A DNA stretch of 20,843 bases from IMG/VR virus record IMGVR_UViG_3300032331_001618, positions 1 to 20,843 of that record; one strand, 5' to 3'. Every line of letters starts with the position of its first letter. The stretch's first letter is position 1. The notes under the pieces are model-generated. The model did no database searches, was not told where the DNA came from, and saw only the letters and a program-made list of their open reading frames with translations. Below are positions 2,146 through 15,263 of the stretch, piece after piece. Both the position numbers and the translations under genes were made by a program. This DNA is from a virus.

Positions 2146-3054
2146 ATGATTTCTTTAATCAAAATTTTAAAAACTATAATAACGGAAGGAGGTAATGTAT
2201 TTACTGGTACAGAATATGATACAGATGATATATTATTAAATAATATTAAACCAACCATAGATGAATTTATATCAACTTTAAGTAGTATATTTCCTAAAAA
2301 GAAATCAACATTTACATCTTTAAGTGATAGTAGTAACTGGTTAGGATCTACTGGTAAAAAACCAAAATCAGGAGACGTAGACTTAGCATATTCATCTGAA
2401 TACTTTTTTAAAGACGGCCAAATAGATACTGAAGGATGGGGGGTAGATCAAAATGAATATACCCAATTATATGAAAAAAACAAAAAAGCAGCTCGTTCTG
2501 CTAGTGACGAACAAATCCAAGTAAAATCATTAATTCAATTAATTGTTAAAAAAATTAATGGATCTGGAAAGGATATATATGCAAATGATAAAGCAGCTAA
2601 TGGTGGTACAATTCACTTTTCGTACCCACAATATTCTGACAGTGAAAAATTAGACACAAATGCTCAACTTGATTTAGATACAGGAGACCTAGATTGGTTA
2701 AAATTCAGATATAATTCTGAATTACCAGATGATAATCAAGAAATTAAAGGATTACATAGAGGACAATTAATGTTAGCTATGTTTGCAGCTACAGGTTATA
2801 CATTTAAAAGTGGTAAAGGTTTCGTTCGTAAAGAAACAGGCGATATATTAGGTGATAAACCTCAAGATGCTATAGATGTATTTAACAATGAGTATAAACC
2901 TAAACAACCATTAGATTTAAAAATAACTAGCAATTATAATAAATTAATGGATTATGTTAAAACTAATCTTGACCCTGAAGACAAAGAAAATACATTAAAA
3001 ATGTTTGCTGAGGCTTTAAGAAGAGCTAAGGCATATGTACCTGATAATATTTAA
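2146..3054 (+). CDS. Nucleotidyltransferase-fold protein with N-terminal [LI]xE tag
   Basis: The 302-residue protein shows a polymerase-beta-type nucleotidyltransferase signature: G67-S68, then D77-V-D79 (in SGDVDLAY), then a third acidic strand near D176/D178 (AQLDLDTG). Enzymes of this fold transfer a nucleotide to RNA, protein or small molecules; the target here is unknown. The first 14 residues, MISLIKILKTIITE, form a hydrophobic/basic helix ending I-T-E|G, the candidate capsid-targeting tag seen across the window, so the mature enzyme may start at G15. The last seven residues, AYVPDNI, recur inside the protein encoded at 8651-9817. The gene follows a TATTTATG box and is separated by five bases from the next gene, whose N-terminal domain is also an NTase. 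The fold is likely; the function is unassigned. Confidence 0.6.
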   Translation: MISLIKILKTIITEGGNVFTGTEYDTDDILLNNIKPTIDEFISTLSSIFPKKKSTFTSLSDSSNWLGSTGKKPKSGDVDLAYSSEYFFKDGQIDTEGWGVDQNEYTQLYEKNKKAARSASDEQIQVKSLIQLIVKKINGSGKDIYANDKAANGGTIHFSYPQYSDSEKLDTNAQLDLDTGDLDWLKFRYNSELPDDNQEIKGLHRGQLMLAMFAATGYTFKSGKGFVRKETGDILGDKPQDAIDVFNNEYKPKQPLDLKITSNYNKLMDYVKTNLDPEDKENTLKMFAEALRRAKAYVPDNI

Positions 3055-3059
3055 ACAAC

Positions 3060-4967
3060 ATGAGTGGAGCAGCAGGCGGATCACGCATTAAAAAAGAAGA
3101 TTTAAAAGCCACGATTCGTGACTATAGAGATAATGTCCTAAAACCATTAGGTCTTGATAAATCATATACCATAACTGGAGTTCGTTCTAGACCTGAAAAA
3201 GAAATATTTGGGGATATAGATGTTGTTGTGTCATTTCCTGAAGGTGATAAAAAAGAACTTAAACAAATTTTAGCTAGTTTTGTAGAACAAGTCAATAAAA
3301 TCCCTGAAATACCACAAAAGAAGAACAAAAAATATTTTATACATGGTTCTATAGTTTCTATATTGTACCCAATATATGGAAAAGAAAATGAATATGTTCA
3401 AATAGATAATATAGTAACAGCATCGAAAGAAGAGGGCAAATTCACATATAAAATGCTAGACCTCCCAGCTCAAGAGCAAGGTTTAGCTTTAGGTTTAGTA
3501 AAAGCAGTATTTTCTGAATTAGATCAAAATCAAATTGATGAATTATTTAAAGATTTAGGTTTATCAAATGTTGAAAAACCTGGTGAAGATGAAGAATATG
3601 ACTTCAATCTAAATCCTTCAGAATTATCATTAAAAATAGTTAAAAAAGGTACTAGTAATGGTAAAACAATATGGACTTCAAATAAATTTTCTGATATAAA
3701 AACAGTATTATCTGCATTAGGTATAGATATTGAAAAAGACAAATTTGATACTATAGTTAGTAAGATTAAAAAATTCAAAAACAGAAGATCAATAGATCGT
3801 CTTAAAGGAATGTATGCTAGAAATATAAGAGTAGGTGATGCTGAAGTAGGACTTGAAAAAGGTATTAAAAAACAACAATCATTAGATACAGTTAATGCAT
3901 TACAAGAAAAACACAATGCGTTAGTAATGAAAATGATTACTCCATTATTAATGGAAGAAAAAAAATCAACAATAGCTGTATTTCCTGGCAAATTCAAACC
4001 ACCACATAGAGACCATTTAGCTCGTATAAATGCTGCTGCAAATGCTGCAGATGAAGTTTTAGTAATAATAGGACCAAAACCAGTAGATTCATTTACTGCT
4101 GAAAAAACATTAGATTTATTTAATTTATTTAAATCAAAAGGTTTAGTACCTAACAATGTTAAATTTATAATTAGTGATTTACCATCACCAGTTTTAAAAG
4201 CATATAAAGAATTTGAAGATAATCCTAATCAACAATATATTGGTGTGTTTGGTAAAGATGATATAGCTCGTTTTAAAGGTATTAGTAAATTACCTAATGT
4301 TAGAGTTGATAATTTTGAAGAAGCAAATGTTGGTAATTTAAGTGCAACTGATTTAAGAAATGCTATTGTAAATAAAGATATTTCAACTATTCAATCAATG
4401 ATGCCTGACGGTATTAATGCTAAAGAATATATCCAAACATTAACCGGTCAAAAAAAATTACAAGAAGCAGTAACTGATACTGAAGTAATTTGTGATAACT
4501 GTGGTTGGCATTGGTCTATTAAAGATGGTGGTGATGATTTATATGTTTGCCATAAATGTGGGTATGATAATACACCTAAATCAAATAAGACTTGGAATCT
4601 CCAAAATGGGATCGTATCTTTAACTAAATACATGTTAGATAATGGGATGAATATATCACCATTACCTAAATTAAAATTTATAGATAATGATAAAGAGAAT
4701 GCAGGTGAATTATTAGGAAAAACGGCATATTATAACCCGTTAGAAAAATCAATCACATTGTATACTTTAAATCGTCATCCTAAAGATATATTACGTTCAT
4801 ATGCTCATGAGATGGTTCATCATGTTCAAAATTTAGAAAATAGATTAAATAATATTAATACTACTAATACAAATGAAGATGGAGCATTGCCTGAAATTGA
4901 AGAGGAAGCATATAAATTAGGAAACATGATGTTAAGAAATTGGGAAGATAATATTAAAAATAAATAA
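3060..4967 (+). CDS. Multidomain protein: NTase + HIGH-type nucleotidyltransferase + zinc ribbon + HExxH peptidase
   Basis: The 635 residues hold four recognisable modules. Residues 1-280 are a second polymerase-beta-like NTase: GDIDVVV with D52/D54, then VQIDNIV with D116. Residues 303-462 are a cytidylyltransferase-like (HIGH superfamily) domain: FPGKFKPPHRDHL with H316 and H319, and SATDLR at 428-433 as the ISxTxIR-like motif. Residues 478-500 form a zinc ribbon (C478, C481, C497, C500). Residues 515-635 contain AHEMVHH at 582-588, an HExxH zinc-peptidase motif, with EEEAY at 614-618 as a plausible third ligand region. The domain junctions carry LLME|E (297-300) and KLQE|A (467-470), both resembling T4 gp21-type cleavage sites, so this may be a polyprotein precursor. 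The HIGH-type domain is a common phage module. The peptidase is short and could be structural rather than active. There is no obvious N-terminal tag on this protein. Confidence 0.75.
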   Translation: MSGAAGGSRIKKEDLKATIRDYRDNVLKPLGLDKSYTITGVRSRPEKEIFGDIDVVVSFPEGDKKELKQILASFVEQVNKIPEIPQKKNKKYFIHGSIVSILYPIYGKENEYVQIDNIVTASKEEGKFTYKMLDLPAQEQGLALGLVKAVFSELDQNQIDELFKDLGLSNVEKPGEDEEYDFNLNPSELSLKIVKKGTSNGKTIWTSNKFSDIKTVLSALGIDIEKDKFDTIVSKIKKFKNRRSIDRLKGMYARNIRVGDAEVGLEKGIKKQQSLDTVNALQEKHNALVMKMITPLLMEEKKSTIAVFPGKFKPPHRDHLARINAAANAADEVLVIIGPKPVDSFTAEKTLDLFNLFKSKGLVPNNVKFIISDLPSPVLKAYKEFEDNPNQQYIGVFGKDDIARFKGISKLPNVRVDNFEEANVGNLSATDLRNAIVNKDISTIQSMMPDGINAKEYIQTLTGQKKLQEAVTDTEVICDNCGWHWSIKDGGDDLYVCHKCGYDNTPKSNKTWNLQNGIVSLTKYMLDNGMNISPLPKLKFIDNDKENAGELLGKTAYYNPLEKSITLYTLNRHPKDILRSYAHEMVHHVQNLENRLNNINTTNTNEDGALPEIEEEAYKLGNMMLRNWEDNIKNK

Positions 4968-4971
4968 AAAT

Positions 4972-5394
4972 ATGGGATTTAAAAGAATTGTAGCAAAATC
5001 TGAAGACGATTTAGTAGAAATTATAGAAAATATAAAAGATTGGTTTAAAAACAATAAGTTCTATAAAACAGAAACAACGTCAGAGAAACGTAAATTTATG
5101 GATCCTGAAACTAAAAAAATCATTGAAAAAAATATTGATGGTTTAAAGGTAATAGATCAAAATAATAAAAAAGAAACAACTATAAAATTCATTCCATTAC
5201 TTAAACCAAACGAAATAAAACTTGAACTTGGGGGTGAAAATGAAACTACTATGGCTGGTAAAATCAAAAATCAAATGATGGGTCGAGGTGTATTAAAATC
5301 GTATAATAAAGATACTAAAGTACCACTTAAAGAAACTATCGCTAAGTCTGAACTTAGAAAAATTATTCGCGAAGAAATATATAAAATTATTTAA
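4972..5394 (+). CDS. Unknown protein with C-terminal LRKIIREEI helix
   Basis: I do not recognise this 140-residue protein. It is strongly charged (Lys/Glu rich) and predicted soluble, starting four bases after the multidomain gene. The C-terminus ends KSELRKIIREEIYKII, an amphipathic helix similar to the N-terminal tag LRELIRKVLKE of the gene at 11596 and to LREKIREMILAE inside the gene at 7561. Here the helix sits at the C-terminus and lacks a clear terminal [LI]xE. This could mean that the helix is a docking element that works at either end, or that the resemblance is only that of generic amphipathic helices. The short gaps to both neighbours indicate co-transcription with the NTase genes upstream and the spanin-like pair downstream. 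Confidence 0.7.
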   Translation: MGFKRIVAKSEDDLVEIIENIKDWFKNNKFYKTETTSEKRKFMDPETKKIIEKNIDGLKVIDQNNKKETTIKFIPLLKPNEIKLELGGENETTMAGKIKNQMMGRGVLKSYNKDTKVPLKETIAKSELRKIIREEIYKII

Positions 5395-5395
5395 T

Positions 5396-5737
5396 ATGAA
5401 AATAAATTATGGTAAAACAATAGCTGTAGCAGTTATTATAGTTGGGTTATGGTTAATCAATATGGTAGTTCGAGATGAACGAGACCACACTAATGGTTAT
5501 AAAAAAACAATAGACAGTTTAAACATTGAATTAGTTAAGATTGATTCTATTCATAAAAAACAAGATGATACTATTATGATATATAAAGACAGTATCGTTT
5601 ACTTAGATAAAATAATTGAAGTTAATAAAGAAAATATAAACAAATTAAAAGAAAAACATGACAAAATATATTATATCGTTACTCAGTACTCTAACGCTCA
5701 GCTTGACAGCTTTTTCACAAACCGTTACGGACACTAA
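5396..5737 (+). CDS. Inner-membrane spanin-like protein (Rz-like)
   Basis: The 113-residue protein has one N-terminal membrane segment (residues 8-25, rich in Ala/Val/Ile/Leu/Trp) followed by a long charged, probably coiled-coil region and a short C-terminal motif (LDSFFTNRY). This is the architecture of an i-spanin: anchored in the inner membrane with a periplasmic coiled coil that bridges to an outer-membrane partner during lysis. The 3' end overlaps the next gene by 80 bases in another frame, and the next product has a signal peptide, which is the nested-gene logic of Rz/Rz1 pairs. No holin or endolysin is evident next to it. Sequence identity to characterised spanins cannot be shown here, so the call rests on topology and gene overlap. 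Confidence 0.6.
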   Translation: MKINYGKTIAVAVIIVGLWLINMVVRDERDHTNGYKKTIDSLNIELVKIDSIHKKQDDTIMIYKDSIVYLDKIIEVNKENINKLKEKHDKIYYIVTQYSNAQLDSFFTNRYGH

Positions 5738-6074
5738 TTACATCAAACTTCCAATCCCTATCGCTAGACAAATAACATTAGATTTAGTTGATGGAGATAG
5801 AGCGAAAGTAGAATTAATATCTACTAAAGACTTACTTAATTTAACAGAACAATCCTCAAGTATGAAGGATAATGTTATTAGAAGTTATGAGACTAAGGTA
5901 GGATTATATGAAAAACAAATTTCAATATACGGCGAGAAAGAAAAGACATATGTTTTAAATATCAAAGAAATAGAGTCTAAAAATAAACGGCTTAAGATTG
6001 AAAATAAATTAATTAAAAGAACAGGATTAACAGCTTTATTAGCTATTAGTGCGTTGTTTATTATATTAAAATAA
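5658..6074 (+). CDS. Secreted coiled-coil protein with C-terminal membrane anchor (spanin partner candidate)
   Basis: The 138-residue product starts with a signal peptide (K3, hydrophobic residues 4-19, cleavage likely after A-F-S20 before Gln21). Ending in FSQ is typical of Bacteroidetes secreted proteins. A heptad-like charged region spans about 65-120, and residues 122-137 form a second hydrophobic segment at the extreme C-terminus. There is no lipobox cysteine, so it is not a classical Rz1 lipoprotein. The start lies inside the upstream Rz-like gene (80-base overlap), as in nested spanin genes. A role in bridging the envelope at lysis is inferred. An alternative is a membrane-anchored periplasmic protein of another function. 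The stop is followed at once by the ATG of the next gene. Confidence 0.6.
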   Translation: MTKYIISLLSTLTLSLTAFSQTVTDTNYIKLPIPIARQITLDLVDGDRAKVELISTKDLLNLTEQSSSMKDNVIRSYETKVGLYEKQISIYGEKEKTYVLNIKEIESKNKRLKIENKLIKRTGLTALLAISALFIILK

Positions 6075-6075
6075 T

Positions 6076-6642
6076 ATGGCAGATACAGTTTTAAAAAAAG
6101 AATTCCAACAGCGTGACGTACAACGTCTGCGTAACTTAATGACCGGAAAACAAGGTGACAAAACAGTTATTGGAGTTGGTTATACAAAAAAAGAAGAATC
6201 CCACAGTGAAGGAGACGTGTGGGAAGACAATGGTCGTAAATGGACTATACAAAATGGTATTAAACAAAACATAACTAAATTAGATAAAGCTAAAAAAGAA
6301 CTTCATCTTCCATTATTTTGTTCAGAATGTAACAATTTAATGAAACCACATTTAGATAAACGTTTCTGGATTATGTACAAACGTTGCTTTAATTGCCAAG
6401 TTGACTTTGAAGCTGAAATAAGAAAACAAGGGTTGTGGGAAGAGTACGAAAAAAATATCATTAACTCGGATATAGATTCTTTAATACAAGAATTTATGAT
6501 TTGGAGTGATGAAACATTAGAGGAAAACGATGCATTCATTACAGAATCAGGTGAGGTTGAAAGTTGGGTTGGTAATGGTAAAAAAATGTTGTTGCAAAAT
6601 CGAGAAGATACAATTAAATATTTACAAAGTTTGAAAAAATAA
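6076..6642 (+). CDS. Conserved T4-like phage zinc-ribbon protein, function unknown
   Basis: This 188-residue protein resembles a hypothetical protein I know from marine T4-like phages: a GDVWEDNGRKWTI block at about 46-58, a KLDKAKKELHLPLF block, then a zinc ribbon (C82-S-E-C85 and C104-F-N-C107) followed by FEAEIRKQGLWEEYE. The ribbon suggests nucleic-acid or protein binding. The family has no established function that I can name with certainty. It starts two bases after the upstream stop and its TAA overlaps the next ATG (TAATG), so it is translationally coupled to the GAF-like gene. The C-terminal 50 residues are acidic. Confidence in the gene is high and in a function low. Confidence 0.8.
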   Translation: MADTVLKKEFQQRDVQRLRNLMTGKQGDKTVIGVGYTKKEESHSEGDVWEDNGRKWTIQNGIKQNITKLDKAKKELHLPLFCSECNNLMKPHLDKRFWIMYKRCFNCQVDFEAEIRKQGLWEEYEKNIINSDIDSLIQEFMIWSDETLEENDAFITESGEVESWVGNGKKMLLQNREDTIKYLQSLKK

Positions 6643-7560: not shown

Positions 7561-8634
7561 ATGAACAAAGAATTCAGTAGAATGCAAAAACTTGCAGGAC
7601 TTTTAACAGAAAACATGGGGGGTACAGATTTAGACTCTACCGCTAGTGATGTATATGATTACTTTAGTAAGAAATCATCATCAACAAGTACAGATAGAAG
7701 AAAATATATAAAATCATTGGGTTTATCTGATGATGATACAGAAACAGTAATGATGAAAGTTACAGATATGATGAGTGATAACATGAACGAAAACATGGGT
7801 GGTACAGATTTAGAATCTGTAGCTAATGATGTATATAATCACTTTAGTAAAATGTCATCATCAACAAGTACAGATAGAAGAGATTATATAAAAGACATAT
7901 ATAGTTTATCTGATGAAGAAACAGAAGATATAATGATGAAGGTTACAGATATGATGAGTGATGAGGGTGATATGAGAGAAGGTGTAGCATCATATGAGTA
8001 TGAAATGGGTAAAAAAGCTGGTAATAAAAATAATTTCCGTGATCCAATTGAATTAGCAAAAGCTGTTGTTGGTAAACATGGACAAGAATTAAAATCATCT
8101 AAAGATTTAAGTCCTAGAGAATTTGAAAGTAAAGCTTTAATGTATGCTTCTAAAATGATGAAAGAAGCAGGAATGGAAAAAGTTGTTATGACAAATTTAT
8201 TTATTGACGAAGATTGGCCATCAGATTATATATCTAAAGTGTCAGAACTTTTACGTGAAATGAGTGGAAAAGAAATGGGTATGGAAGAAGGTTTAAAAAG
8301 AACAATACGTGAAAGTCAAAAGCAAAAATCACTAAGAGAAAAAATACGTGAAATGATTTTAGCTGAAATGAACGATGTTGATTTATATGATCCATTAGAT
8401 GAAGCTAAAAAAGACGAAGAAGAAGTAGAAGATATTGAAGTAGAAGATGTTGATGTAACAGATGAAAAAATGGTTGGAAATGACGATCCAAAAGTAACTA
8501 AAATCCAAGATTTACTTAACCAACTACAAGACGCTGCTGAAGAATTAGGCGATGAAAAGTTATTAACACAAGTTGGCAATACCATTACATTCTTTACTCG
8601 CGAACATGTTGCTAATGCAGATAACATGGGCTAA
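7561..8634 (+). CDS. Tagged virion-protein candidate with an internal duplication
   Basis: The 357-residue protein begins with EFSRMQKLAGLLTE|N (Glu17), the same MQKLAG tag used at 16439 and 19099. Residues 17-76 and 77-136 are a near-perfect tandem copy (ENMGGTDL..., SSSTSTDRR..., MMKVTDMMSD). Residues 140-235 are helical and unrelated to anything I recognise. A second tag-like helix, SLREKIREMILAE|M, ends at residue 269, and LYDPLDE|A follows at 281, so the C-terminal 75 acidic residues could be released separately. The C-terminal part (KIQDLLNQLQDAAEELGDEKLL then ITFFTREHV) is reminiscent of small T4-like phage proteins of unknown role. It follows a TATTTATA box. A packaged or prohead-core protein is inferred; no enzymatic motif is seen. 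Confidence 0.6.
   Translation: MNKEFSRMQKLAGLLTENMGGTDLDSTASDVYDYFSKKSSSTSTDRRKYIKSLGLSDDDTETVMMKVTDMMSDNMNENMGGTDLESVANDVYNHFSKMSSSTSTDRRDYIKDIYSLSDEETEDIMMKVTDMMSDEGDMREGVASYEYEMGKKAGNKNNFRDPIELAKAVVGKHGQELKSSKDLSPREFESKALMYASKMMKEAGMEKVVMTNLFIDEDWPSDYISKVSELLREMSGKEMGMEEGLKRTIRESQKQKSLREKIREMILAEMNDVDLYDPLDEAKKDEEEVEDIEVEDVDVTDEKMVGNDDPKVTKIQDLLNQLQDAAEELGDEKLLTQVGNTITFFTREHVANADNMG
7609..7971 (+). repeat. Tandem in-frame duplication, 180-base period
   Basis: Two adjacent units begin at GAA 7609 and GAA 7789 and stay closely similar at the DNA level, for example in GGTACAGATTTAGA and the TCATCATCAACAAGTACAGA block. The second unit is one codon longer after the TATATAAAA stretch. The high DNA similarity points to a recent duplication inside the gene. 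Confidence 0.85.
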
Positions 8635-8650
8635 TTAAATAATACATAAC

Positions 8651-9817
8651 ATGAACGAGAATAAAATTAGAGAAATGATTGTATCTGCTCTCTTGAACCC
8701 TATGCCTGAGAAGATTGATTCTAAAGAATATGTTTCAAACCGCAAACAATCAAAATCAAATCCTATAGACACAATAACAATGGACGTTCCATTATTCATT
8801 CGTATGATGGAATTTGCTCGTGAAGATGCTAAATCAGACTTAGACTTACACGATGTTGCTGAAAAAGCAATTTCGTTAAGCAATAATGGCAAAACATTAA
8901 CAATGTCAGATTATGAGACTATGTTTGGTGGTGAATTAAATGAAGCTCAATCATCTAGTAATGAATCTTTAGCTAAAAAAGTAGAAGAAGTAGTAAAATC
9001 ACTTACCACATTACATAAAAACACATCAAACAACTCAAATATACCAGAAACTGATAAAAAAGGTTTATTACGTGCTTTTGATATGTTGAAAGGAGATTTA
9101 GAAACTGTAGTTACAAATCTTAAAGGTGGTTTATCTGAAAGTATGTTAGATGAAGCCTATGTTCCTGACAATATTAAAAAATTCGCTAAACAAAGAGGTG
9201 TATCTTCTTTAGTTAATAAAGCAGCGGGCTGGGCTGAAAAAGTAGGCAAAAGAATTAATGGCGGTACAGCTATTGGTAAAAATTATAGCACACTTGTTCT
9301 AGATATGGGTTACCAAACGGGTGATATCCACATCAATACAGACGATGAAACTATTAAATTATATGGTGAAGAAGTTAACAGCTTTCCTGAATTTAAAGAA
9401 GTCTACATGGATCAAATAAGTGATAAAAAAGAAGATTTAGACGAAAATAAAAAAGGATGGAATTCATCTAAAGACACTCCAGAAATTAAAGCGTTAATGG
9501 CCATAGCTGATGATACATCTAATTCATATATTGAAAGAGATGAAGCAAGACAAAAAGCATACGATTTACGTGCTGCTATGTCAAAACAAGATGAAGGTTT
9601 ATCTAAAGGATATTGGGCTAAAAAAATACCTGGAGGTAAAATGGAAGAATCATATAAAACCTTAGTTAATAAAATTAAAAAACAAGGTAAATCTGAAAAA
9701 GCATCTAAAGCAATAGCAGGTGCTGTAGCATCATACAAATCAAAAGGTGGAGGTTCTGGACCAACCGCAAAACAAAAATCAATGGCCGAAACCATCATGT
9801 CTAAATTAAAAGGGTAA
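8651..9817 (+). CDS. Conserved unknown multi-segment phage protein, possible packaged protein
   Basis: This 388-residue protein has three parts separated by tag-like sites. Residues 1-97 begin NENKIREMIVSALL, a helical start like the tags but without a clean LxE, and include VPLFIRMMEFAREDAKSDLDLHDVAEKA, a block I know from marine phage proteins of unknown role. GELNE|A (98) closes it. Residues 99-168 form a helical region ending SMLDE|A (168). Residues 170-388 start YVPDNIKKFAKQRG and end with a basic Gly/Lys/Ser-rich tail (KQGKSEKASKAIAGAVASYKSKGGGSG), which could bind DNA. The gene starts 16 bases after the previous stop without a Shine-Dalgarno. No catalytic motif is visible. It may be processed like the proteins around it, but this is inference. 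Confidence 0.55.
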   Translation: MNENKIREMIVSALLNPMPEKIDSKEYVSNRKQSKSNPIDTITMDVPLFIRMMEFAREDAKSDLDLHDVAEKAISLSNNGKTLTMSDYETMFGGELNEAQSSSNESLAKKVEEVVKSLTTLHKNTSNNSNIPETDKKGLLRAFDMLKGDLETVVTNLKGGLSESMLDEAYVPDNIKKFAKQRGVSSLVNKAAGWAEKVGKRINGGTAIGKNYSTLVLDMGYQTGDIHINTDDETIKLYGEEVNSFPEFKEVYMDQISDKKEDLDENKKGWNSSKDTPEIKALMAIADDTSNSYIERDEARQKAYDLRAAMSKQDEGLSKGYWAKKIPGGKMEESYKTLVNKIKKQGKSEKASKAIAGAVASYKSKGGGSGPTAKQKSMAETIMSKLKG

Positions 9818-12296: not shown

Positions 12297-12905
12297 ATGA
12301 TTAAACTCATCGACTTACTTAAAGAAGATAGCCCATTCGTTCCAAGGGGCTCAAAAGAAGAACGAGGAAAAGAATATGAACGAATATCCCAAAATATAAT
12401 CCAACAATATATAAAAGACGGAATGAAAGGAGATTTAGACTTATCTGATACTCCAATCACCTCACTTCCCTCTAACTTAACTAAAGTTGGAGGCGATTTA
12501 AGGATATTAAATACTCCAATCACCTCACTCCCAAATAACTTAACAGTTGGAGGTGGTTTATATTTAATTCGCACCCCAATCACCTCACTCCCATCTAGTT
12601 TAACTAAAATTAATGGTGATTTAGATTTATATAAAACCCCAATCACCTCACTCCCAGATAACTTAACTAAAGTTGGAGGTAATTTAGATTTATCTTTTAC
12701 CCCAATTACCTCACTCCCTGACAACTTAACAGTTGGAGGTTATTTAGATTTATCTTATACTCCAATTACCTCCCTCCCATCTGACTTAAAGGTTATGGGT
12801 AGTTTAAATTTACGTAAAACTCCACTATCTAAAAATCATTCCGAAGCGGAAATTAGAGCAATGGTACCAAATGTTAAAGGTAAAATCCTTATGCAATATT
12901 TATAA
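12297..12905 (+). CDS. Tagged leucine-rich-repeat protein, 6 repeats (LRR paralog 1)
   Basis: The start is set at the ATG at 12297, giving MIKLIDLLKE|D, identical in form to the paralogs; the longer reading from 12240 would run through the upstream gene. The 202 residues contain the tag (1-10), a charged linker ending QQYIKDGMKGDLDLS, and six repeats with TPITSLP at 52, 73, 93, 114, 135 and 155. The period of 20-21 residues is that of short bacterial LRRs as in YopM and IpaH effectors. A cap TPLSKNHSEAEIRAMVPNVKG closes the domain. LRR domains bind proteins, so an interaction with a host or virion protein is likely. No catalytic domain is attached. It is one of three paralogs in a cassette interrupted by the WCT gene. 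The tag suggests packaging in the capsid, which is inferred. Confidence 0.8.
   Translation: MIKLIDLLKEDSPFVPRGSKEERGKEYERISQNIIQQYIKDGMKGDLDLSDTPITSLPSNLTKVGGDLRILNTPITSLPNNLTVGGGLYLIRTPITSLPSSLTKINGDLDLYKTPITSLPDNLTKVGGNLDLSFTPITSLPDNLTVGGYLDLSYTPITSLPSDLKVMGSLNLRKTPLSKNHSEAEIRAMVPNVKGKILMQYL
12452..12790 (+). repeat. Tandem LRR-coding DNA repeats, about 60-63 base period
   Basis: Near-identical segments such as CCAATCACCTCACTCCC recur every 60 or 63 bases in phase with the reading frame and encode TPITSLP. The low divergence between units favours recent expansion and contraction by recombination or slippage, matching the differing repeat numbers (6, 4, 3) among the three paralogs. Confidence 0.85.
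12897..12904 (+). promoter_or_regulatory. TATTTATA box overlapping the end of LRR paralog 1
   Basis: The box spans the last codons and part of the stop of the LRR gene and lies 13 bases before the ATG at 12918. It encodes Tyr-Leu-stop in frame, so coding constraint alone could partly explain it. Confidence 0.35.
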
Positions 12906-13651: not shown

Positions 13652-14134
13652 ATGATTAAACTCCTTGACTTACTTAAAGAAGACAACCCATTCGTTTCAA
13701 GAGGTGGGAAAGAACGTGTAGAAGCTTATTCTTTAAAGAGAAAAGCTGAAATAGAAAATAAAATACAACAATATATAAAGGATGGAATGGAAGGCGATTT
13801 AGATTTATTTGACACTCCAATCACCTCACTCCCACCTAATTTAACTAAAGTTGGAGGTGATTTAATTTTGAATAGAACTAAAATTACTTCACTTAATAAC
13901 TTAACTAAAGTTGAAGGCGATTTAAATTTATTTCGCACCCCAATCACATCACTTCCAGATAACTTAACAGTTGAGGGCGAATTAGATTTAAATAACTCTA
14001 AAATCAGTAAACTCCCTGATAACTTAACAGTTGGAGGTGATTTATATTTAGATGATACTCCACTCTCTAAAAAATATTCTGAAGATGAAATTAGAGTAAT
14101 GGTGCCAAATATTGAAGGTGAAATCTATATATAA
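13652..14134 (+). CDS. Tagged leucine-rich-repeat protein, 4 repeats (LRR paralog 2)
   Basis: At 160 residues this paralog shares the tag MIKLLDLLKE|D, the linker (NPFVSRGGKERVEAYSLKRKAE then KIQQYIKDGMEGDLDL) and the LRR cap (TPLSKKYSEDEIR..MVPN) with its neighbours. Its repeats are TPITSLP, TKITSLN, TPITSLP and SKISKLP. The second lacks the usual Pro and is one codon shorter, which would slightly distort the solenoid. It starts two bases after the WCT gene with no TATTTATA box, so it probably depends on the transcript from upstream. A protein-binding role is inferred from the LRRs; the partner is unknown. Confidence 0.75.
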   Translation: MIKLLDLLKEDNPFVSRGGKERVEAYSLKRKAEIENKIQQYIKDGMEGDLDLFDTPITSLPPNLTKVGGDLILNRTKITSLNNLTKVEGDLNLFRTPITSLPDNLTVEGELDLNNSKISKLPDNLTVGGDLYLDDTPLSKKYSEDEIRVMVPNIEGEIYI

Positions 14135-14145: not shown

Positions 14146-14568
14146 ATGATCAAACTTCTCGATTTACTTAAAGAAGATAACCCGTTTGTTCCACGGGGTG
14201 GGAAAGAACGTGTAGAAGCTTATTCTTTAGAAAGAAAAGCTGAAACAGAAGATAAAATACAACAATATATAAAAAACGGAATGAAAGGGGATTTAAAGTT
14301 ATTTTATACTCAAATTACAACACTCCCTAATAACTTAACAACTGTTGAAGGCAATTTAGATTTAGATAACTCTAAAATTACTAAACTTCCTGATAATTTA
14401 ACAGTTATGGGTAATTTATATTTATCTGATACTTCAATTGATTCACTTCCATATGATTTAACTGTTGGAGGTAATTTAAGTTTAAGAAACACACCACTCT
14501 CTAAAAAATATTCAAAAGATGAAATTAGAGCAATGGTGCCAAATGTTAAAGGCAACATTAGAATGTAA
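14146..14568 (+). CDS. Tagged leucine-rich-repeat protein, 3 repeats (LRR paralog 3)
   Basis: This 140-residue paralog has the same tag and linker as paralog 2 (MIKLLDLLKE|D, GGKERVEAYSLERKAE) but only about three LRR units, with the more diverged motifs TQITTLP, SKITKLP and TSIDSLP. The cap TPLSKKYSKDEIRAMVPNVKG is retained. The linker is more conserved than the repeats, so the linker and tag may be the constrained parts while the repeat face varies, as expected for a recognition protein facing a changing target. Three bases of leader separate it from a TATTTATA box. Confidence 0.75.
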   Translation: MIKLLDLLKEDNPFVPRGGKERVEAYSLERKAETEDKIQQYIKNGMKGDLKLFYTQITTLPNNLTTVEGNLDLDNSKITKLPDNLTVMGNLYLSDTSIDSLPYDLTVGGNLSLRNTPLSKKYSKDEIRAMVPNVKGNIRM

Positions 14569-14579: not shown

Positions 14580-15263
14580 ATGATCAAACTTACAGACATA
14601 TTAAACGAATCATATAACCCAAATGTATATCAAATTGAATGCAGGGTAGTAATGGGTGCTGGAAATCGCCCAATCCAAGACATCATATCAGATATCAGAG
14701 CAATTCCTGGCGTTACCGTGGTAGATACAATTGAATCAGATTATAATACTGAAGAAGGAAGACACGTTACTGACCTTAGTATTAAAGTAGACCCATCACC
14801 ATTCAATCCATTTGACCGTAGTTCTTATATTAAAATATTAAATGATATAAAGAAACTACCTGACGTTAGAGGAGCTAAATACATTTCAGCCCCAGTTGTA
14901 GCTGAAAATAAATTACAAAGATTAATCAAAGAAGTACTACAAGAAGATAGATGTAAAAAAATAGCAGACCGCAAATACGATAAACCATCAGCTTACAAAT
15001 CGGGAGCTATAGTAAGATGTCGTAAAGGAGATATTTGGAAAGACTTAAAAGAAGACGAATCTTTACATAAATGGTTTAAACGTTCAGGCCCTAAAGGTAA
15101 AGAAGGAGGTTGGGTAGATTGTAATGCACCTGATGGAAAAGGAGGATATAAAGCATGTGGTAGAAAAGAAGGTGAAAAACGAGCTAAATACCCATCATGT
15201 CGTCCTACACCAGCACAATGTAAAACACCTGGCAAAGGTAAAAAATGGGGCAAAACAAAATAA
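14580..15263 (+). CDS. Tagged two-part protein: unknown N-domain plus DUF5872-like C-domain
   Basis: The 227-residue protein starts with MIKLTDILNE|S (Glu10). Residues 14-103 look like a small alpha/beta domain (VYQIECRVVMG, IQDIISDIRAIPGVTVVDTI, TDLSIKVD, YIKILNDIKKLPDVRGAKYI), possibly ferredoxin-like. A second tag, NKLQRLIKEVLQE|D, ends at Glu122. Residues 123-227 match the virus/phage DUF5872-type domain: VRCRKGDIWKDLKEDESLHKWF, GGWVDCNAPDGKGGYKACGRK, YPSCRPTPAQC, followed by a very basic tail. The Cys residues suggest a metal site. The internal tag sits exactly between the domains, consistent with cleavage to two products. DUF5872 has no known biochemical role that I can state. Neighbours: LRR paralog 3 upstream, a tagged small protein downstream. 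Confidence 0.7.
   Translation: MIKLTDILNESYNPNVYQIECRVVMGAGNRPIQDIISDIRAIPGVTVVDTIESDYNTEEGRHVTDLSIKVDPSPFNPFDRSSYIKILNDIKKLPDVRGAKYISAPVVAENKLQRLIKEVLQEDRCKKIADRKYDKPSAYKSGAIVRCRKGDIWKDLKEDESLHKWFKRSGPKGKEGGWVDCNAPDGKGGYKACGRKEGEKRAKYPSCRPTPAQCKTPGKGKKWGKTK

Follow-up and report, generated by a model that had tools for sequence, protein, structure and literature searches.

Is the 635-residue protein encoded at positions 3,060 to 4,967 of this viral DNA one multidomain enzyme, or is it a chain of enzymes that the phage cuts apart? The window, meaning the whole 20,843-nucleotide stretch that was analysed, belongs to a T4-type phage whose hosts are probably flavobacteria. The initial annotation had read this frame as an NTase, a HIGH-type nucleotidyltransferase, a zinc ribbon and an HExxH peptidase, joined at sites resembling those of a prohead protease. 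All four modules are present (Table 1). The answer favored here, and held with good confidence, is that the gene encodes a head-targeted modular polyprotein of internal enzymes that would be cut by the prohead protease.

Table 1. Window features discussed in the text (a slash marks a predicted cut)
Feature	Position	Strand	Details
Upstream tagged gene	2146..3054	+	MISLIKILKTIITE/GGNVF; likely second NTase-type protein; same tagged-protein cluster
Putative polyprotein ORF	3060..4967	+	635 aa; relatives L002-L066, immuto gp088
Module NT1, pol-beta/MNT-type nucleotidyltransferase	3060..3944	+	Residues 1-295
Predicted prohead-protease site 1	3945..3956	+	LLME (296-299)/E300; kept in 19/20 aligned relatives; low-pLDDT linker
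Module NT2, NMNAT/NadD-like HxGH nucleotidyltransferase	3957..4454	+	Residues 300-465
Predicted prohead-protease site 2	4455..4466	+	KLQE (466-469)/A470; 21/21 ZR contexts; low-pLDDT linker
Module ZR, zinc ribbon (CxxC-CxxC; CDNCGW...CHKCG)	4467..4592	+	Residues 470-511; mobile module
Module PEP, HEMVHH zincin-type metallopeptidase	4593..4964	+	Residues 512-635
Tagged protein	7561..8634	+	MNKEFSRMQKLAGLLTE/; many internal [LIVM]xE
Tagged protein	14580..15263	+	MIKLTDILNE/; internal LKE/DES site

The modules and their mosaic relatives

NT1 starts with MSGAAGG, without an N-terminal tag, and carries the motif GDIDVVV...VQID. Its Pfam matches (DNA_pol_B_palm/NTP_transf_2) are weak, and its Foldseek matches include DNA polymerase lambda. 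NT2 matches phrog_395 (E 8e-12), has NadD and NadM as its top PDB matches and carries an ISSTxxR-type motif, here LSATDLR. Its counterpart in the Flavobacterium phage immuto is annotated as an NMN adenylyltransferase. A distant homologue of NT2 in a Lak megaphage is standalone and untagged, which speaks neither for nor against a polyprotein. A link between NT2 and the Namat of NARP1 was considered and dropped because Namat is described as Nampt-analogous. PEP is conserved in most relatives, and a close relative of it matches Peptidase_M91 with an E-value of 0.003, under the Pfam cut-off. Neither NT1 nor PEP reaches the curated Pfam cut-offs, and both assignments also rest on motifs and fold matches. 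The putative functions of the modules are read from folds and motifs. It is tempting to speculate that an NMNAT-like enzyme could help to maintain NAD in the infected cell.

How common is this architecture? A first scan returned 65 related IMG/VR loci together with four records of immuto phages; when a larger relative then served as query, the collection grew to about 100 loci, several of which share contigs. Mosaic versions of up to 1,222 residues occur in these IMG/VR loci and in cultured immuto. No relatives were found in bacterial or archaeal genomes. Among cultured phages only the immuto records have these modules, weak zinc-ribbon matches elsewhere being uninformative.

The relatives combine NT1, NT2, ZR and PEP in many ways, and ZR turns up downstream of many different modules. 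Further modules are ART-like, ParB-like, a HAD phosphatase, a second zincin (GRYD...HEIEH), a basic module, a DUF6934-like module and peptides of about 20 residues, although several module names are based on matches under the Pfam cut-off. Several unrelated effector-type domains share each polypeptide in a shuffled architecture, as is characteristic of polyvalent proteins. The protein of 1,222 residues (L016:3300-6968) has two NMNAT-like modules and two zincins, with a zinc ribbon after the first zincin. In another locus NT1 and NT2-PEP are two genes (L028:3836-4786 and 5162-6637); this NT1 ends in a tag-like helix without LxE, and the NT2 starts with its own tag.

Sites at the module joins

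The initial annotation numbered the residues of the two sites one too high, but both sites and the fragment starts that it predicted (E300 and A470) are right. It had also described them as flanked by short linkers at the domain junctions. In the AlphaFold2 model both are in low-confidence linkers, with pLDDT below 50 at residues 283-301 and 464-475, which cover site 1 and site 2, respectively. The window protein has seven [LIV]xE in its 635 residues, and three are in low-confidence residues where 0.8 would be expected (p=0.03). This makes the coincidence of sites and linkers weak in the window protein by itself; it is the relatives that make it strong. In the model of one of them (L058), 12 of 16 sites are in low-confidence linkers (p=3e-5).

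Conservation singles out the same positions. E299 of site 1 is kept in all but one of the 20 aligned relatives, whereas other [LIV]xE glutamates are poorly kept (E83 in 4/12, E161 in 3/12, E283 in 9/21 and E615 in 2/21). A conserved LxE also occurs within the zincin (E612, kept in 15/21). Each of the 21 distinct zinc ribbon contexts has [LIVM]xE at the KLQE position. Thus, the junction residues are conserved and the flanks vary, which is the opposite of domains persisting while their junctions drift. There is no site at the ZR/PEP boundary of the window protein and therefore three fragments are predicted, not four. In immuto gp088, the predicted cuts after TLAE, VVKE, RLPE and VMAE would give fragments starting at A287, G497, G566 and G703, respectively. 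An internal translation start at a Met before site 1 was rejected because the Met residues there are not conserved in relatives.

Is the motif a general property of the joins? One approach was blind to it, taking breakpoints from pairwise alignments of 39 non-redundant proteins with no use of any motif. Among 316 gapped residue pairs, LxE, IxE and VxE ranked 1 to 3 in enrichment within six residues of the breakpoints. Where at least five alignments supported a breakpoint, [LIV]xE was near 130 of 193 (37 expected), but control pairs were not enriched ([LIV]xD 27 against 39.5 expected, [FYWA]xE 12 against 25). The breakpoints of related proteins are not independent, and this comparison is therefore given without an exact p-value. 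For other tagged proteins of the same loci the figure was 162 of 293 breakpoints against 73 expected, and for untagged proteins it was 61 of 226 against 30.

The other approach was anchored on six mobile modules. For each distinct upstream context, the residues at the three positions preceding the module were recorded, after removal of similar contexts within each module. In 48 of 49 non-redundant left contexts they are exactly [LIVM]xE, a motif with a background of 1.9% per position. P3 is L in 18, V in 15, I in 13 and M in 2, P1 is Glu in 48, and P2 is variable (mostly N, K, Q, T or E). The codons also vary between contexts (TTA, CTA or CTT; ATT, ATA or ATC; GTA, GTT or GTG). When PEP forms the protein C-terminus (RNWEDSIKNV and variants) none of 11 forms has a site; when another module follows, a site lies no more than 10 residues away in 10 of 13 forms. 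A few joins have no close site, in L030 and also in L009 and L019, where it is about 20 residues away.

Tags, tagged neighbors and mobile peptides

A comparison with relatives in which the modules are separate genes had been proposed at the outset, and its outcome was the one predicted. Where NT2, ZR or PEP is a gene by itself, the product opens with an N-terminal tag of the T4 type. For the NMNAT module such tags, among them MNSLTKVLVGGILE/ and MNQLVKELVKGLFE/, were counted in 29 ORFs without dereplication; MNILVSSLVEHLTE/ precedes the zinc ribbon in L039, and MISLVKLLKE/ precedes the zincin in L049. An N-terminal tag is present when NT2, ZR, PEP or HAD comes first and absent when NT1 does, as in the window. 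NT1 always starts untagged (MSGxAGG) in relatives, so N-terminal head targeting is absent from the window architecture. Perhaps the helix before site 1 acts as an internal tag. The NT1-NT2 join closely resembles the tag of a free-standing NT2 (HNSLVQNLISGLINE in L012, MNQLVKELVKGLFE in L028).

The gene immediately upstream provides a natural comparison. Its immuto homologue starts M/GGNVF and is untagged, while other relatives have a tag ending in xxE before GGNVF. These tags end exactly at the untagged immuto start, and the last three residues of the L028 tag are TAE. By reading of the gene list, about 14 window genes begin with such tags. Three neighboring genes (12300-12905, 13652-14134 and 14146-14568) are paralogues with the tag M(I)KLxDLLKE/D(N/S)PFV and LRR-like repeats (SLPxNLTxVGGDL). 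The product of 8651-9817 is a tagged or modular protein in which the blocks LDE/AYVPDNIKKFAKQRG and EGLSKGYWAKKIPGGKMEE are shared with other carriers, and its peptide AYVPDNI is also the end of the 2146-3054 product.

Short peptides are mobile too. Relative to the 14580-15263 protein of the window, its immuto homologue gp084 (L067:16054-16524) carries an insertion of some 20 residues (DPQAGxAxPYGSG) at the LKE/DES site. The fuller form, A[SD]DPQ[AS]GxAxPYGSG[FY]AxV[KN]E, has LxE sites on either side of it in unrelated carriers, also including those of L025, L036, L065, L081, L086 and L108. A second mobile peptide, GTCGYDTxxKTGxxLxTPGGLEE (L024, L043, L051, L062, L009 and L019), has [LIVM]xE directly before it in every context seen.

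The prohead protease

In T4, gp21 is known to cleave behind L/I-x-E, and internal proteins are targeted to the head by their N-terminal tags (PMC9026906). A protease of this type (S77, PF03420) is encoded in 8 of 13 records, including immuto (gp070, E 7e-36) and every near-complete one; the records with no PF03420 match are fragments. The 20.8-kb window fragment itself contains no capsid or protease gene. Immuto also has gp20- and gp23-type head genes. At the gp23-type propeptide end, the capsid proteins all have [IV]xE in immuto and in nine related records, in the forms LVTE/, LVME/ and IVSE/. V at P3 of the module joins fits because the capsid proteins keep these same forms.

A proposed polyprotein cut in the head, and other explanations

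The tagged free-standing modules, the conserved junction residues and the gp21-type protease of near-complete relatives all argue for the polyprotein that the initial annotation had suggested. No proteomic or biochemical data on these proteins were found; the fate of the chain, from its targeting and cleavage to its place in the virion, its delivery and its function, is inferred from the sequences. The polyprotein would assemble into the prohead core, as T4 Alt and IP proteins do, and the S77 protease would then cut C-terminal to Glu in the [L/I/V]-x-E linkers. The window protein would yield three products: NT1 (residues 1-299), the NMNAT-like enzyme (300-469) and the zinc ribbon together with the zincin (470-635). 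Modules are shuffled, added and dropped among the relatives while nearly all joins retain a site, and therefore each module could be freed as a separate virion enzyme. The freed enzymes would probably enter the host together with the DNA and act there, for example in NAD metabolism, ADP-ribosylation or proteolysis.

A broader proposition is also reasonably likely, namely that a T4-type phage lineage has made the proteolysis of capsid maturation serve as a general polyprotein system with cassettes exchangeable at prohead-protease sites. The cassettes would range from peptides of about 20 residues to enzymes. With in-frame insertion at such sites, new virion-delivered effectors would not have to bring their own gene, promoter or tag.

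Could the joins simply be relics of fusion between adjacent tagged genes, with the tags left as uncut linkers or internal targeting helices? The likeness between the NT1-NT2 join of L012 and the free-standing tag of L028 is what such fusion would leave behind. However, P3 and P1 are kept in 48 of 49 contexts while adjoining positions vary, and most joins retain only a short xxLxE without the tag helix. Retention of P3 and P1 when the tag helix is mostly gone points to selection on a cut site, which makes uncut relics unlikely. The modules are clearly mobile and their insertions are always at the motif, as would be expected if module shuffling at DNA-level recombination hot spots yielded it as a by-product. 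Yet the motif codons vary, P2 is free and there is no evident shared DNA word, and this explanation is highly improbable.

Cleavage could instead have a different agent or purpose. The embedded zincin (HEMVHH) might process the polyprotein in place of the prohead protease, as has been proposed for the zincin-like peptidases of polyvalent proteins (PMC5512222), and a zincin is present in most relatives. Nevertheless, the junction motif matches gp21 specificity and is also kept at the capsid-protein site. N-terminal tag sites occur on proteins without a zincin, and immuto gp084, which has none, carries its mobile peptide at an LxE site. Processing by the zincin is thus quite unlikely. A role in the core or scaffold, in which the protein would be shredded and expelled as T4 gp22, gp67 and gp68 are, with cuts serving removal and not enzyme release, is very unlikely. 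The same motif is indeed cut several times in T4 core proteins (PMC9026906), but the sites here are at domain joins, the enzyme motifs HxGH, HExxH and DxD are kept, and the modules also exist as separate tagged genes. Cleavage by the prohead protease that releases enzymes remains the preferred explanation.

Comparison with known systems

According to the initial annotation, the layout is not known to be described for T4-like phages. Among open-access papers no report was found that connects a capsid targeting sequence or prohead protease with a polyprotein or domain shuffling, an absence that is not proof. Nor was there, in the papers searched, a description of mobile enzyme modules whose joins nearly all carry a prohead-protease site. 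A multidomain parallel is the polyvalent proteins of phages (Iyer et al., 2017; PMC5512222), which combine zincins with ART, ParB and NTase-type domains. They are proposed to be delivered and processed, and the authors note an analogy with viral polyproteins. The difference is that processing is ascribed there to the embedded zincins, whereas the motif described here points to the prohead protease; a term search of the paper returned no passage on a prohead-protease site at joins. In the giant phages phiKZ and SPN3US, a gp21-like protease cuts many head proteins after x-x-E, some of them multiply (PMC5694885). Those cuts remove propeptides, and the passages of PMC5694885 concerned do not describe cuts between enzyme domains.

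T4 itself offers two comparisons. Its core proteins gp22, gp67 and gp68 have multiple [LI]xE cuts per chain, but the products are small peptides, most of which leave the head. Its internal proteins (Alt and IPI-III) are alike in having a short N-terminal tag ending in [LI]xE, which is seen here on proteins that begin with NT2, ZR, PEP or HAD. Also alike are an S77 protease, a gp23-type capsid and a diversity of internal proteins delivered to the host, a delivery that is presumed for the present system. However, each T4 internal protein has one or two terminal propeptides, in contrast to several enzymes per chain with sites at nearly every join.

If the polyprotein reading is true, the motif would predict virion-delivered effectors from sequence alone in many uncultured aquatic phages, and a natural rule would be suggested for loading multi-enzyme cargo into T4-type heads. 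The enzymes loaded by way of the polyprotein would be directed at the host and would form a changing set. Some tailed DNA phages would then make a true polyprotein that is cut by the capsid protease, and retroviruses cut their Gag-Pol polyprotein likewise.
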